A stretch of DNA of 64,000 nucleotides from Microbacterium schleiferi (GTDB taxonomy: Bacteria; Actinomycetota; Actinomycetes; Actinomycetales; Microbacteriaceae): the NCBI RefSeq assembly GCF_020781975.1, contig NZ_JAJGNI010000005.1, positions 62,001 through 126,000 of the forward strand. The letters run 5' to 3'. Shown here in pieces: positions 26,135 through 37,719 of the stretch (position 1 is its first letter; the number at the start of each line of letters is the position of its first letter). The notes under the pieces were generated by a model. The model saw only the letters and a program-made list of their open reading frames with translations. It was not told the origin of the DNA and ran no database searches. Position numbers and translations under genes: made by a program.

Positions 26135-26142
26135 TCGTATAC
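26135..26142. promoter_or_regulatory. candidate GntR operator/promoter of the ABC-deaminase operon
   Basis: TCGTATAC, with TATACA as a possible -10, lies 48 nt before the binding-protein start. The same octamer is found before the second operon at 32793. GTATAC cores are common in FadR/FCD-type GntR operators. Confidence 0.5.
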
Positions 26143-26189
26143 AAAACGCGAGAGATCGCGTCATGATTGCCGCGAGAATTGAGAGGCTT

Positions 26190-27236
26190 ATGAAGACTTC
26201 AAGCCACCGCGATAGGCGTCTCGCCTGGGCGGGTGCGACCATGGTGGGGATGCTGACGATCGCCGGTTGTGCGGCGGAGCCATCGACCGAGGAAGAGTCC
26301 CTTCCGGTCGTGGCGACACAGCTGAACTGGGTCACCAACGTGGAGTTCGCCGGAATGTGGATCGCCGAGAGCGAGGGCTACTACGCGGAGGAGGGCATCG
26401 TCGCCGAATGGCTGCCGGGCGGCCCCAACGTCTCCAACACCGTTCAGATCGTCGCATCCGGTGACGCACCGATCGGACTCGATACGAACTTCACCTCGTT
26501 CATCGACGCCGTGTCGGAGGGAGCCGACGTGGTGCTCGTCGGTGCTGTCTACCAGGAGAGCCCATTGGCAATCCTGTCGCTCTCCGAGAACCCGATCAAC
26601 TCGGTCGAGGACATGATCGGCAAGCGCATCGGAAGCCCCCAGGGGCAGCAGCGTGAACTGGATGCCATCTTCACCATCAACGGGCTAGAGCCGGATTACG
26701 AGTTCGTGCCGATCGGCTACGACGTGCAAGCGCTCGTGAACGGAGACGTCGACGGGATCACCGCCTTCGCCACCAACCAGGGACTCATCCTCGAAGAGCA
26801 GGGTGTGGACTACACCAGCGTGTCGTGGCAGGACCTGGGTCTGGATGTCTACTCCAACATGATCTTCGTCGACCGCACCTACCTGGAAGAGAACCGCGAC
26901 CTGGTTGTCGCCTGGTTGCGGGCTACCGTGAAGGGCTGGGAGAAGAACGCCGACGACCCCGAAGTGGCCGCGCAGCTCGCGGTCGACGTGTGGGGAGCCG
27001 ACCTGGGACTCTCGCTGAGCCAGCAGATCAAGGAGAACATCAATCAGATCCCGATGACGACGAGCGATCTCACCGCGGAGTCGGGTCTGTTGCGGATCTC
27101 GGCGGAGGACATCGAGCAGAAGATGTACCCGATCCTGCGGGCTGCGGGCATGACCGATCTTCCTGATGTCGCGACTTACGTTGACGAATCGCTGCTCGAC
27201 GAGGTCTTCGGCGGATCGGCAACCCTGCTCCGATGA
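26190..27236 (+). CDS. ABC transporter substrate-binding lipoprotein (NMT1/ThiY-like)
   Basis: The 348-residue extracytoplasmic receptor has an N-terminal signal with lipobox LTIAGC (lipid-modified Cys27). Its NMT1/THI5-like fold is recognisable from LNWVTNVEFAGMWIAESEGYY, GDAPIGLDTN and SQQIKENINQIP. Relatives bind pyrimidine precursors, sulfonates or other small N-heterocycles. In this cluster the likely ligand is melamine or another s-triazine (inference). The ATG with GAGAGG was chosen; an in-frame ATG at 26163 would add nine residues. It is coupled to the first permease by ATGA. Confidence 0.88.
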   Translation: MKTSSHRDRRLAWAGATMVGMLTIAGCAAEPSTEEESLPVVATQLNWVTNVEFAGMWIAESEGYYAEEGIVAEWLPGGPNVSNTVQIVASGDAPIGLDTNFTSFIDAVSEGADVVLVGAVYQESPLAILSLSENPINSVEDMIGKRIGSPQGQQRELDAIFTINGLEPDYEFVPIGYDVQALVNGDVDGITAFATNQGLILEEQGVDYTSVSWQDLGLDVYSNMIFVDRTYLEENRDLVVAWLRATVKGWEKNADDPEVAAQLAVDVWGADLGLSLSQQIKENINQIPMTTSDLTAESGLLRISAEDIEQKMYPILRAAGMTDLPDVATYVDESLLDEVFGGSATLLR

Positions 27237-35271: not shown

Positions 35272-37034
35272 TCTCTCCTCGCATGGAGATCGCCCGCCTC
35301 CACTCCGCGTACCGGCGGGGAACCTGCACACCTCGCGATGTGGCGGAGCGCACTCTGGCTGCGATCGATGCGCGAGGACGTGACGGAGTCTGGATCTCGG
35401 TCTCCGATCGACTCGTCCGAGATGCTGAAGCACTCGATCCTGCCGATCGCGATCGTCTTCCGCTCTGGGGCATCCCCTTCGCGGTCAAAGACAACATGGA
35501 CGTCGAGGGGTGGGCGACGACGGCGGCGTGCCCGTCTTTCGCCTACAGCCCCCAGCAGTCGGCACCCGTGGTTCGCGACCTGATCGCGGCAGGCGCGATC
35601 CTCGTCGGCAAGACCAACCTGGACCAGTTCGCTACCGGTCTGAACGGTACCCGTTCTCCTTACGGGACGCCCTCCTCGGCCCACGATAGCTCCCTCATCT
35701 CCGGCGGGTCGTCATCAGGATCCGCGGTAGCTGTTGCGGCGGGCCTGGTTGCGTTTTCTCTGGCGACCGATACCGCGGGGTCCGGGCGCGTTCCCGCGGC
35801 GTTGAACGGGGTCGTCGGTCTCAAGCCGAGTGTGGGCCTTGTCAGCACTCGCGGTGTCGTGCCGGCGTGCCGGTCGCTCGATTGCGTTTCGGTGATGGCG
35901 AACTCGGTTGCCGACGCAGCCATCGTGGCTCAGGTGATCGCCGGCTTCGATGATCAGGACCCCTGGTCGCGCCCGCTCCCGGTTCCTTCCGCCCGGGTTG
36001 CTTCGGTCTCGCTCGCCGGAGTCCGCCTGGGCGTGCCTGAGGTTGTCGCCGGATGGGGCGAGCGTGGCGAGGAGGACGCGTGGAGTCGGGTCCGTGCCGA
36101 CCTCGTCCGAGCCGGAGCCGAACTGGTTGAGATCGACTACACCCCGCTTCTCGAGGCAGGTCGTCACCTGTATGGCGGTGCGTGGCTTGCTGAGCGCGCG
36201 ACCGCCGTCTCGGTCGCGCTCGAGGAGGACCGAGACGACGTCGACCCGGTCGTGCGCCAGATCTTGGCGGGCGCCGGTGCGATGTCGGCCGCACAGGTCT
36301 GGTCGAGTATGCACCGCGTGTGGGAGTTGCGGCGGGAGGCGGATGACATCCTCCGTTCGGTCGATGCTCTGCTCACTCCCACGGTGACGAAGACCTACAC
36401 GGTCGAGCAGATGCGCGCTGACCCCGTCGAACTCAACGCGCAATTGGGTACCTACACGACCTTTACCAACCTGCTCGACATGTGCGCCATCGCGGTCCCG
36501 GCGGGGAGTACGGCGGCGCACGTCCCCTTCGGTGTCACCCTTCATGGGCCTTCCGGTGCCGACCAGGAACTCGCAGGGCTGGCGTCGGCGCTCGCGGATG
36601 CGGTCGACCAGGACTCGCTGATGGAGGTCGCCGTCGTCGGCGCCCATCTCGAGGGGTTCGGACTTCATCACCAAATCACCGATCGCGGCGGGCTCCTGAG
36701 CCGGCGCACGATGACCGCACCCCGGTACCGGCTCTACGCGCTCCCCGGCGACGAGCCGCGACGTCCCGGGCTGGTGACCGATCTACGAGAAGGCGCTCGT
36801 ATCGAGGTCGAGGTCTATCGGCTTCCGACTGCTACCGTCGGGTCCTTTCTCCGCGGTGTGAGTGCACCGTTGGCGATCGGCACGCTCGAGCTCGACGACG
36901 GCACCGCCGTCCACGGATTCGTCTGCGATCCGACGGCGCTCGAGGGAGCGCGTGACATCACCGCGTACGGCGGGTGGCGCTCGTATATGGCCGCGGCGGC
37001 CGATGATCTCAACAGGGCGGCCGATGCCAGCTGA
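35268..37034 (+). CDS. atzF: allophanate hydrolase
   Basis: The 588-residue two-domain enzyme degrades allophanate to ammonia and CO2. The amidase-signature domain has the catalytic lysine in GIPFAVKDNMDV (near residue 75) and the Ser-rich SLISGGSSSGSAVAVAAGLV (near 145-165) with the nucleophile in DTAGSGRVPAA. The C-terminal domain (about 460-588, PRYRLYALPG...APLAIGTLELDDG...ITAYGGWRSYM) is the one found in AtzF and the urea-amidolyase partner. This ends the pathway from s-triazines to ammonia. Confidence 0.92.
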   Translation: MISPRMEIARLHSAYRRGTCTPRDVAERTLAAIDARGRDGVWISVSDRLVRDAEALDPADRDRLPLWGIPFAVKDNMDVEGWATTAACPSFAYSPQQSAPVVRDLIAAGAILVGKTNLDQFATGLNGTRSPYGTPSSAHDSSLISGGSSSGSAVAVAAGLVAFSLATDTAGSGRVPAALNGVVGLKPSVGLVSTRGVVPACRSLDCVSVMANSVADAAIVAQVIAGFDDQDPWSRPLPVPSARVASVSLAGVRLGVPEVVAGWGERGEEDAWSRVRADLVRAGAELVEIDYTPLLEAGRHLYGGAWLAERATAVSVALEEDRDDVDPVVRQILAGAGAMSAAQVWSSMHRVWELRREADDILRSVDALLTPTVTKTYTVEQMRADPVELNAQLGTYTTFTNLLDMCAIAVPAGSTAAHVPFGVTLHGPSGADQELAGLASALADAVDQDSLMEVAVVGAHLEGFGLHHQITDRGGLLSRRTMTAPRYRLYALPGDEPRRPGLVTDLREGARIEVEVYRLPTATVGSFLRGVSAPLAIGTLELDDGTAVHGFVCDPTALEGARDITAYGGWRSYMAAAADDLNRAADAS

Positions 37035-37719
37035 CGACGTCCCGATCCTCGCGGTTCACGGGGTCGCGGCCTCACCTGCCGTCTGGGATCCTCTGAAGCG
37101 CTTGATTCCACAGCTCCGGGCGCTTCGTCGCCCGAAGACCGGTCGGTTGGAGGACGAGATCGAGTGGCTGGCCGAGTATGCGGCGGGCGCGGTCATCGTG
37201 GGGATGTCAGGCGGGGCAACCCTCGGTCTCGCGCTCGCGGGCATGGGTGCCGCGTGCCATGGATTCGTCCTCCATGAGCCGGCGGCGGGGAACCTGGTGC
37301 CGGACCTTCTCTCCCCGACCGCCGAGGCCTTTCGCCGTGGCGGGACGACAGCGGTGGGTAAGGCGCTCTATGGCAGGAGGTGGTCGGTCGACCTGCTCGA
37401 TGACCACGGAGACGTCGACGCGACGACGGCGAAGGAGATCGCCATGTTCCGCAGCTTTCAGCCTCGACGTCGACCGGTCGGGGGACCCCGATGCGTGGTC
37501 ACGACGGGGTCTCGGTCGGCTGCGCCCAGGCACCATGTTGCGAGAGAGCTGCGGCGGCTGGGCTACGAGACTCGCACCATCGAAGGCTCCCGGCACTTCG
37601 TCACATACGAGCAGCCCGCGAGGCTGGCCGCCCTGGTGCGCGAGGTCGCCGGATTGGATGCGCCCGGGCATCCGGGGATCGATGACGGAGGTTCGGGGTG
37701 GGCGAGGTTCTGGTGGTGA
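37024..37719 (+). CDS. alpha/beta hydrolase of unknown substrate
   Basis: The 231-residue protein has ILAVHGVAASPAVWDPL near the start, a nucleophile elbow VGMSGGATLG (Ser near residue 63) and a C-terminal histidine in EGSRHFVTYEQP. The usual acidic residue after strand 7 is not obvious in TTGSRSAAPRHH. It overlaps atzF by 11 nt as the last gene of the operon. A role on a pathway intermediate or an N-alkyl side chain is possible but unproven. Confidence 0.75.
   Translation: MPADDVPILAVHGVAASPAVWDPLKRLIPQLRALRRPKTGRLEDEIEWLAEYAAGAVIVGMSGGATLGLALAGMGAACHGFVLHEPAAGNLVPDLLSPTAEAFRRGGTTAVGKALYGRRWSVDLLDDHGDVDATTAKEIAMFRSFQPRRRPVGGPRCVVTTGSRSAAPRHHVARELRRLGYETRTIEGSRHFVTYEQPARLAALVREVAGLDAPGHPGIDDGGSGWARFWW

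Follow-up and report, generated by a model that had tools for sequence, protein, structure and literature searches.

A 12-gene cluster predicted to import and mineralise amino-s-triazines, carried by a 31.1-kb and probably mobilisable element of Microbacterium

A 12-gene cluster was found in the DNA of Microbacterium schleiferi analysed here (the window, i.e. the whole stretch of 64,000 nucleotides), on a 31.1-kb element. It probably encodes, at roughly two chances in three, the import, deamination and mineralisation of amino-s-triazines such as melamine, ammeline or ammelide, under the control of a GntR/FCD regulator and with a recent spread. Substrates, regulation and transfer are what we infer from these sequences. 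Reading frames together with Pfam and NCBIfam profile searches confirmed all 12 genes of the triazine block, on the + strand at 26190-37719 (Table 1). This is in line with the first-pass annotation, since the gene families that it named are all encoded there, with scores over cut-off in the Pfam search, and since the deaminases do lie between importer genes. In the proposed pathway, the NMT1-type ABC importer would take up the triazine, the TriA-like enzyme would start by removing one or two amino groups, and the ADA-family enzyme, assigned by elimination, would remove the remaining ones. The AtzD-type enzyme would then open the ring to carboxybiuret, which would lose CO2 to give biuret; BiuH2, perhaps together with BiuH1, would convert biuret into allophanate, from which the AtzF-type enzyme would release ammonia and CO2. 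The full route from cyanuric acid to ammonia, as claimed in the first pass, is indeed supported by family assignment.

Gene ends overlapped by 1-11 bases at 9 of the 11 joints (by 4 bases at five joints in operon 1, and by 1, 4, 4 and 11 bases at four joints in operon 2), which resembles translationally coupled operons. The previously suggested layout in two operons is supported by the presence of an operator-like site in two copies. A scan for consensus promoters gave 0 matches, versus 0.9 expected.

Table 1. Features of the cluster and of the element that carries it (positions in the window; scores in bits).
Feature	Position	Strand	Evidence
tRNA-Glu(ctc), integration site	17834..17909	+	ARAGORN; Rfam tRNA 59.6
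attL-like 48-bp repeat, 3' end of tRNA-Glu	17864..17911		100% identical to 48951-48998
Tyrosine integrase	17971..19098	-	Phage_integrase 71.4
MobF/TrwC relaxase-helicase	20183..23602	-	TrwC 135.8; NF041492 114.9 (cut-off 100)
IS481-family transposase, left of cluster	23904..24866	+	rve_3, LZ_Tnp_IS481
Predicted operator 1, TCGTATACAA	26135..26144		TYGTATACRA site
ABC substrate-binding lipoprotein, NMT1/ThiY-like	26190..27236	+	PF09084 (NMT1) 137.9, over cut-off
ABC permease 1	27233..28015	+	PF00528 (BPD_transp_1) 56.2, over cut-off
ABC permease 2	28012..28803	+	Reading frame; GTG start overlaps permease 1 stop
ADA-family deaminase, candidate ammelide/ammeline deaminase	28800..29834	+	A_deaminase (PF00962) 242.3, over cut-off
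AtzA/TriA-family deaminase, candidate melamine/ammeline deaminase	29831..31243	+	Amidohydro_1 209.4, over cut-off
ABC ATPase	31240..32055	+	TIGR01184 224
GntR/FCD regulator	32105..32746	+	GntR (PF00392) 55.2, FCD (PF07729) 64, over cut-off
Predicted operator 2, TCGTATACGA	32793..32802		TYGTATACRA site
BiuH1, divergent biuret-hydrolase paralog	32808..33551	+	NF050097 402.2 (cut-off 370); F47, L218
AtzD-type cyanuric acid hydrolase	33551..34570	+	PF09663 (Amido_AtzD_TrzD) 338.6 (cut-off 25)
BiuH2, canonical biuret hydrolase	34567..35271	+	NF050097 406.4 (cut-off 370); 381 to 6xjm
AtzF-type allophanate hydrolase with C-terminal domain	35268..37034	+	TIGR02713 688.1 (cut-off 511.05)
Alpha/beta hydrolase, conserved partner of actinobacterial cyanurate loci	37024..37719	+	Abhydrolase_6 36.9, over cut-off
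Second, different IS481-family transposase, right of cluster	38263..39327	-	50% to left one
attR-like 48-bp repeat	48951..48998		100% identical to 17864-17911

The cyanuric acid half, with its predicted AtzD-type ring opener, biuret hydrolase and allophanate hydrolase, is well supported by profile matches. The ring opener exceeded the cut-off of TIGR02714 (269.5 versus 153.1) and scored 344.7 with the NCBIfam equivalog NF052395, below the cut-off of 360; it is therefore called AtzD-type, not a proven equivalog. Both BiuH copies passed the NF050097 cut-off, in accordance with the first-pass view that BiuH replaces AtzE, as well as that of Pfam Isochorismatase (141 and 143.5 bits). Both also have all five of the residues D36, K142, C175, K145 and Q215, and every BiuH residue examined was present in BiuH2. 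The triuret hydrolase TrtA is distinguished by F, N, E and Y at BiuH positions 47, 53, 173 and 200 (residues as given in PMC7948467; equivalence of 47 and 200 from our own alignment), a set found whole in 16 of 50 proteins of AtzD loci. BiuH1, with F47 but Y53, D173 and T200, was ruled out as a TrtA. The AtzF-type protein matched both Amidase (292.7 bits) and AH_C (PF21986, 155.1 bits) over the Pfam cut-offs. The alpha/beta hydrolase partner was present in 10 of 80 AtzD loci, this cluster counted, and its model (pLDDT 89.9) gave generic fold matches only.

The upper half, i.e. the importer and the two deaminases, plausibly serves amino-s-triazines. The TriA-like enzyme matched AtzA (4v1x) with 396 bits, the next solved relative reaching 181 bits, and it was 42% identical to AtzA and 43% to TriA-like Klebsiella plasmid proteins (range 42-45%). 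TriA and AtzA themselves are 98% identical; the present enzyme has no such close identity to TriA and was therefore filed as TriA-like. TriA differs from AtzA at nine positions, among which 84, 328 and 331 are the main determinants (PMC4356373); TriA states were found at six of the nine (L84, L92, D125, I217, D328 and C331) and AtzA states at none. It should be noted that this residue test is less discriminating than it seems, as L84 (116 of 123 rows) and D328/C331 (114 of the 122 family rows with letters there) are near-universal, the latter pair being therefore a mark of the family in general and not of melamine, while the N328/S331 of AtzA is unique among the 122 rows.

The ADA-family enzyme is the weakest point of the pathway reading. 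Its PF00962 match includes the metal and catalytic residues and it exceeds the NCBIfam adenosine deaminase cut-off; to our knowledge, it has no triazine-active relative. One relative, 52% identical, adjoins nucleoside hydrolase and ribokinase genes, a nucleoside-salvage set, and a Rhizobium plasmid ADA, also 52% identical, has unrelated genes as neighbours. An ADA gene near AtzD was found in one of 80 genome loci, namely this cluster. Regarding the importer, both deaminase genes sit between its permease and ATPase genes, and the best solved relative of the binding protein is 3ix1, which binds aminopyrimidine. The start of the binding protein at 26190 was picked at the lipoprotein signal, further in-frame starts being available upstream. 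Permease 2 was assigned by its frame and, in the copy of the locus found in G504, by its similarity to permease 1 (31%, 72 bits), rather than by a separate family scan, and the NCBIfam matches of the ATPase were all below the model cut-offs among the best 25 listed.

A link between the two halves is suggested by the palindrome TYGTATACRA, of which the 3,018,995-bp genome holds exactly two sites, one before each operon; 0.01 would be expected in the 64-kb window, and the backward-read control pattern had one site in the genome. The regulator, for which an alternative TTG start at 32084 is possible, was 41-48% identical to the gntR products of 10 other actinobacterial cyanurate loci. Of 10 other gntR-cyanurate loci from actinobacteria, 9 have the palindrome after gntR, and 0 matches were found in 1,254,863 bp of 69 other AtzD loci. 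The GntR/FCD regulator would bind this sequence before both operons and, with the same predicted operator at each, the signal of the cyanurate operon would also govern the deaminase operon. G504, another member of the genus, has only operon 1 from the cluster (6353 bp, 99.92%), and also a different cyanurate operon of its own, gntR-permease-atzD-biuH-hydrolase-atzF.

Alternatively, the cluster could be directed at cyanuric acid and at triazines that carry N-substituents or have lost part of their amino groups (ammelide, ammeline, cyromazine products), with melamine a poor substrate at best. The modest identity of the TriA-like enzyme to AtzA and TriA-like proteins, its TriA states at only six of nine positions, and the NMT1-kind binding proteins found near AtzD without these deaminases (any match in 12 of the 80 AtzD loci, counting the present one) are consistent with such a use; we consider it somewhat unlikely, as the three main pocket determinants are all in the TriA state. 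A still more doubtful possibility is that purine or pyrimidine bases, or nucleosides, are what operon 1 takes up and deaminates, its position next to a cyanurate operon being incidental. Indeed, of the two sites in the whole genome for the motif that follows cyanurate gntR genes, one belongs to operon 1, AtzA is by far the nearest solved relative of its TriA-like enzyme, and its homologs recur on contigs equal in length to those with AtzD. When homologs were paired solely by equal size of their longest contig, with a limit of at least 5 kb, AtzD and TriA-like homologs gave 6 pairs (5 sizes) versus 0.17 expected, AtzD and ADA homologs 3 versus 0.11, and TriA-like and ADA homologs 1 versus 0.10; without the 5-kb limit, shared sizes numbered 4 versus 1.1 expected for AtzD with ADA and 3 versus 1.2 for TriA-like with ADA. 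The ADA enzyme moreover belongs to a small subgroup with NTDDG (6 of the 120 homologs listed, against 111 with NTDDP), which includes P0242 and P0246, two of the three proteins on equal-sized contigs of at least 5 kb, the third (P0304) having NTDDS.

As AtzD and barbiturase form one family, and barbiturase 5hwe matches the ring opener with 184 bits, a barbiturase-type oxidative pyrimidine pathway was also weighed, but it appears extremely improbable. Cyanuric acid hydrolases outscored this barbiturase (212-231 bits), and two BiuH genes and an allophanate hydrolase gene share the operon. AtzD has R, T, R, G and G at 195, 321, 325, 345 and 346, versus N, H, K, V and S/A in barbiturase (PMC3758960), and the present protein was AtzD-type by motif at all five specificity positions (SRAAS, STRHAR, YVSGG); its identity as a barbiturase was ruled out by these residues.

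Within the preferred reading of amino-s-triazine mineralisation, we tentatively suggest, as a possibility that we would not favour outright, a natural and old pathway. Its ADA enzyme would be the first amino-triazine deaminase of PF00962, drawn from nucleoside salvage and marked by NTDDG, and its trio would now be spread by a modern tRNA-Glu element. Proteins related to the three (73% for AtzD, 81% for TriA-like and 78% for ADA; each in 4 contigs, the longest of 9361 bp) suggest that the trio diverged long before synthetic melamine. TriA-type deamination would then be ancestral and AtzA dechlorination derived; which of AtzA and TriA is nearer to the ancestor was called unclear in 2012 (PMC3387218), and the relatives found here would bear on this question. 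If true, the proposed pathway would also provide genes ready for use in melamine clean-up, an operator for actinobacterial cyanurate regulation that can be tested and, from a family where none was expected, a candidate enzyme for the ammelide step.

As cargo, the cluster belongs to a 31,087-bp element, at whose two borders the tRNA-Glu end is repeated perfectly over 48 bp. The sequence of this element is almost unchanged across three Microbacterium genomes and those parts of a fourth that were compared. Against three further genomes of Microbacterium, 0-6 differences were counted where the element was compared, and matching pieces of the flanks differed by 12-26%. An integrase by the tRNA-end direct repeat, a relaxase, near-identical copies and unlike flanks are features of an integrative mobilisable element, and no mating-pair formation genes were seen among the scanned ORFs, a subset of those of the element. 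A recent passage of the element from one Microbacterium species to another, by mobilisation, is probable. A bacterium would probably gain the whole predicted pathway in one transfer; if so, everything from the importer and the two deaminases to ring opening, complete mineralisation and the regulator would move between species as one 31-kb unit, whereas in the classical cases the genes are scattered on plasmids. The shared block is bordered by the 48-bp repeats and not by IS copies; a composite transposon of two equal IS copies was ruled out, the two IS481 transposases being 50% identical and in opposite orientation. A 13.6-kb unit, suggested by L002 alone, was also rejected: its contig breaks off at each end inside an IS481 gene (window 24782 and 38355), and the block is larger in G1015 and G1042, whose genomes are each a single contig. 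In a plasmid collection, 45 records matched parts of 17900-40000, none covering 80%, and the best 10 of these 45 had only relaxase or IS in common, at about 72-77%.

Plasmid pADP-1 of Pseudomonas sp. ADP (NC_004956) similarly combines an AtzA-family first enzyme, AtzD ring opening and an AtzF finish on a mobile replicon. However, its atzA lies about 65 kb from the atzD operon (atzDGEHF), versus one block here; AtzE/G/H perform the middle step instead of BiuH; a LysR-type gene, not GntR/FCD, precedes atzD; and BMP-type ABC transporter genes stand beside atzD, whereas an NMT1-type importer encloses the deaminases here. The ADA-family enzyme is also, unlike in pADP-1, a feature of the present cluster. 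The contrast with atz plasmids drawn in the first pass thus holds for the arrangement, but it overlooked that BiuH-type cyanurate loci are ordinary in actinobacteria. Loci with gntR, NCS2 permease, atzD, biuH and alpha/beta hydrolase genes (Nocardia, Prauserella, Gordonia and the second G504 locus; L004-L006, L009, L010, L013, L063, L072, L114) share the regulator family, the operator-like motif and three enzymes with the cluster. The NCS2 permease gene, present in all nine, has no counterpart here, where an extra BiuH and the importer/deaminase operon fused upstream are found instead; a stretch of about 1.3 kb separates atzD from biuH in seven of the nine.

What is unusual here is the fused deaminase/importer operon sharing an operator-like site with the cyanurate operon, together with mobility. 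The element with its 48-bp repeat, the two-site palindrome, operon 1 alone in G504 and the TriA-like residue states are new, and no such cluster was found described in the titles and abstract openings listed from the open-access literature. A melamine- and cyanurate-degrading Microbacterium strain was reportedly described by Shiomi and Ako in 2012. Rhodococcus sp. Mel is said, from the 2012 work of Dodge and colleagues, to use a TrzA-type melamine deaminase and to have its genes dispersed over three or more regions, in part on a linear plasmid, as opposed to one locus on a chromosomal element here. Among solved structures, the BiuH of this strain (6xjm; PMC7948467) is closest to both copies in the cluster. 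The strain is likewise actinobacterial, with BiuH beside AtzD. Finally, plasmid pRL10 of Rhizobium leguminosarum 3841 (L026) also has AtzD with two isochorismatase-like hydrolases nearby, the second of which has the TrtA residues, whereas the second copy here is a divergent BiuH.

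The first-pass annotation had described a clustering of triazine-type gene families in the window, and this observation was borne out, twelve plus-strand genes being found at window positions 26190-37719; the window itself belongs to contig C30 of a 3.02-Mb genome (G000). The enzyme families of the cluster are known ones, but their compact arrangement is new, and is probably co-regulated and mobile; the substrate assignments of its upper half, operon 1, are predictions. To our knowledge, there is no case of PF00962 in an amino-triazine breakdown pathway.

Features of the gene cluster and of the element that carries it (window positions)
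Feature	Position	Strand	Remarks
Left 48-bp direct repeat	17864-17911		perfect repeat
Left ~180-bp direct repeat	25194-25369		86% identical to right copy
TYGTATACRA site 1	26135-26144		45 bases ahead of binding-protein start
Operon 1		+	NMT1-type substrate-binding lipoprotein, two permeases, ADA-family deaminase, AtzA/TriA-family (TriA-like) deaminase, ATPase; every joint a 4-base overlap
GntR/FCD regulator gene		+	begins 49 bases past operon 1
TYGTATACRA site 2	32793-32802		5 bases ahead of BiuH1 start
Operon 2		+	BiuH1, AtzD, BiuH2, AtzF, alpha/beta hydrolase; joints overlap by 1-11 bases
Alpha/beta hydrolase	37024-37719	+	last gene of operon 2
Right ~180-bp direct repeat	37719-37897		overlaps 3' end of hexapeptide-transferase gene
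Hexapeptide transferase	37735-38253	-	
Further cargo	39379-46890		heavy-metal P-type ATPase, chromate transporter, CoA-disulfide-reductase-like flavoprotein, MIP channel, arsenate-reductase-like phosphatase
Zeta-toxin family kinase	47214-48263		130 bits; adjoins right 48-bp repeat
Right 48-bp direct repeat	48951-48998		perfect repeat
22-bp tRNA-Glu repeat piece	49134-49155		shortly beyond right border

In the lower pathway, the AtzD-type protein scored 338.6 bits with PF09663, and 231 bits with a solved cyanuric acid hydrolase versus 184 with barbiturase; its 344.7 was below the NCBIfam equivalog cut-off (360). According to the residue rule in section 12 of PMC3758960, which opposes R, T, R, G, G in AtzD to N, H, K, V, S/A in barbiturase, it carries, as read by motif, the full AtzD set and no residue of the barbiturase set. 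Its top relative from another named genome (52%) belongs to Pseudonocardia dioxanivorans CB1190 (locus L003), a strain that appears in PMC3758960 as Pseudomonas dioxanivorans CB1190, within group I, the AtzD-signature group. The AtzD product, carboxybiuret, is stated in PMC6219798 to yield biuret by loss of CO2. Both BiuH1 and BiuH2 exceeded the biuret amidohydrolase cut-off, with 6xjm from Rhodococcus Mel as closest solved relative, an enzyme described in PMC7948467 as hydrolyzing biuret and, slowly, triuret. When positions 47, 53, 173, 200 and 218 were compared in 50 BiuH/TrtA (triuret hydrolase) proteins from AtzD loci, including these two, Y-Y-D-T-V was found in 26, among them BiuH2, Y-Y-D-T-I in seven, the TrtA set F-N-E-Y-I in 16, and F-Y-D-T-L in BiuH1 only (1/50). 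BiuH1 is thus neither a plain BiuH nor a TrtA, and may have a changed substrate preference. AtzF is full-length, with its C-terminal domain present. The alpha/beta hydrolase is kept beside actinobacterial cyanurate genes in 10 of 80 AtzD loci including this cluster (the others being L004, L005, L006, L009, L010, L013, L063, L072 and L073), and in L114, a second cyanurate locus of the compared genome G504; SGG, HEPAAG and a late His are invariant in the hydrolases of these loci.

Regulation may connect the two operons. A gntR gene matching that of the window at >130 bits was found near atzD in ten other loci (nine from the GTDB set of 80, plus L114), nine of which have the order gntR - NCS2 permease - atzD, the permease being confirmed in 9/9. 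Directly behind gntR, the same nine loci carry the palindrome TYGTATACRA, mostly in two copies; in the tenth, L003, gntR follows atzD and the palindrome is absent. Over 12 loci, namely these ten, L002 (an exact copy of the cluster) and L073, which has neither such a gntR nor a site, 24 sites were counted over a total of 225,516 bp, of which five lie near neither gntR nor operon 1; the 69 other AtzD loci contained none in 1,254,863 bp. The genome itself (3,018,995 bp) has exactly two copies, with one for the backward-read control pattern and 0.01 expected within the window. As the motif was noticed at the window's two sites before being counted, the fair points are the location of both genomic copies in the cluster and the recurrence in other loci. 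This predicted operator would link operon 1, with its deaminases, to the regulator of the cyanurate genes, which is the best evidence that the product of operon 1 is a triazine.

A single suggestive case comes from G504, one of whose contigs starts with a 99.92% match to 25978-32330 (6353 bp, 5 mismatches); its gntR is truncated behind codon 82, with IS21-type genes in the 2-4.5 kb that follow. Elsewhere, this genome has its own operon gntR (41%) - permease - atzD (49%) - biuH (74%) - hydrolase (35%) - atzF (44%). An upper operon together with an independent cyanurate operon fits cyanuric acid as the upper-operon product.

Mobility was suggested by comparison with two single-contig genomes of the genus, G1015 and G1042, which share with the window a block extending from the tRNA-Glu 3' end to about 49.0 kb. 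Beyond it, matching pieces >400 bp were 74-88% identical, and the right-side flank of G1015 gave none. The 48-bp repeats at the borders delimit an element of 31,087 bp, in which an integrase and then a MobF relaxase follow the left repeat. Compared with the window, G1015 shows two differences in the stretch bounded by the repeats and G1042 six, of which five are single-base gaps; in the cluster copy of G1042 (L125), such gaps affect the genes for the ATPase, BiuH2 and AtzF and reflect either sequencing error or decay. The whole 13,574 bp of L002 (NZ_MKTR01000011.1, Microbacterium sp. 67-17) equal 24782-38355 with 0 mismatches, and its exact reverse complement is a contig of G1041, of the same genus, taken as the same assembly. 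In G588 (Microbacterium sp. 67-17), 0 mismatches were found over 24782-38355 and at most one difference over 40071-48950, followed by 463 differences within the next 3.3 kb. The 22-bp piece is perhaps a scar of a previous insertion at the same site, recombination between the ~180-bp repeats bracketing the catabolic segment could remove the 12.5-kb cargo, and the Zeta-toxin family kinase is possibly a stability module.

The TriA-like protein was 100% identical in five of 366 genomes of the genus (G000, G504, G1015, G1041 and G1042), with no further match at E 1e-70 among 396 phylum genomes, where the ADA-type protein had a single other match (44% identical). AtzD-type proteins are rare in the family (5/397 other genomes, three with E below 1e-30). 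Among the matches listed, rows with a length (119 AtzD, 118 TriA-like, 118 ADA) were compared for equal longest contigs, expectations being obtained by jittering lengths. At ≥5 kb, AtzD and TriA-like coincided in six pairs (five lengths) versus 0.17 expected, AtzD and ADA in three versus 0.11, and TriA-like and ADA in one versus 0.10; below 5 kb, coincidences among these matches were not above chance. We infer that the 9361-bp rows (four contigs each; AtzD 73%, TriA-like 81%, ADA 78%) represent one contig and, if so, the trio long predates industrial melamine.

Two Klebsiella plasmids from water in the Netherlands (L110, L111) encode amidohydrolases 98% identical to AtzA yet with D328/C331, having 8/9 and 7/9 TriA (melamine deaminase) states, respectively; one lies ~4 kb from an atzD fragment, and next to the other are genes for an NCS2 permease and for a nucleoside deaminase.
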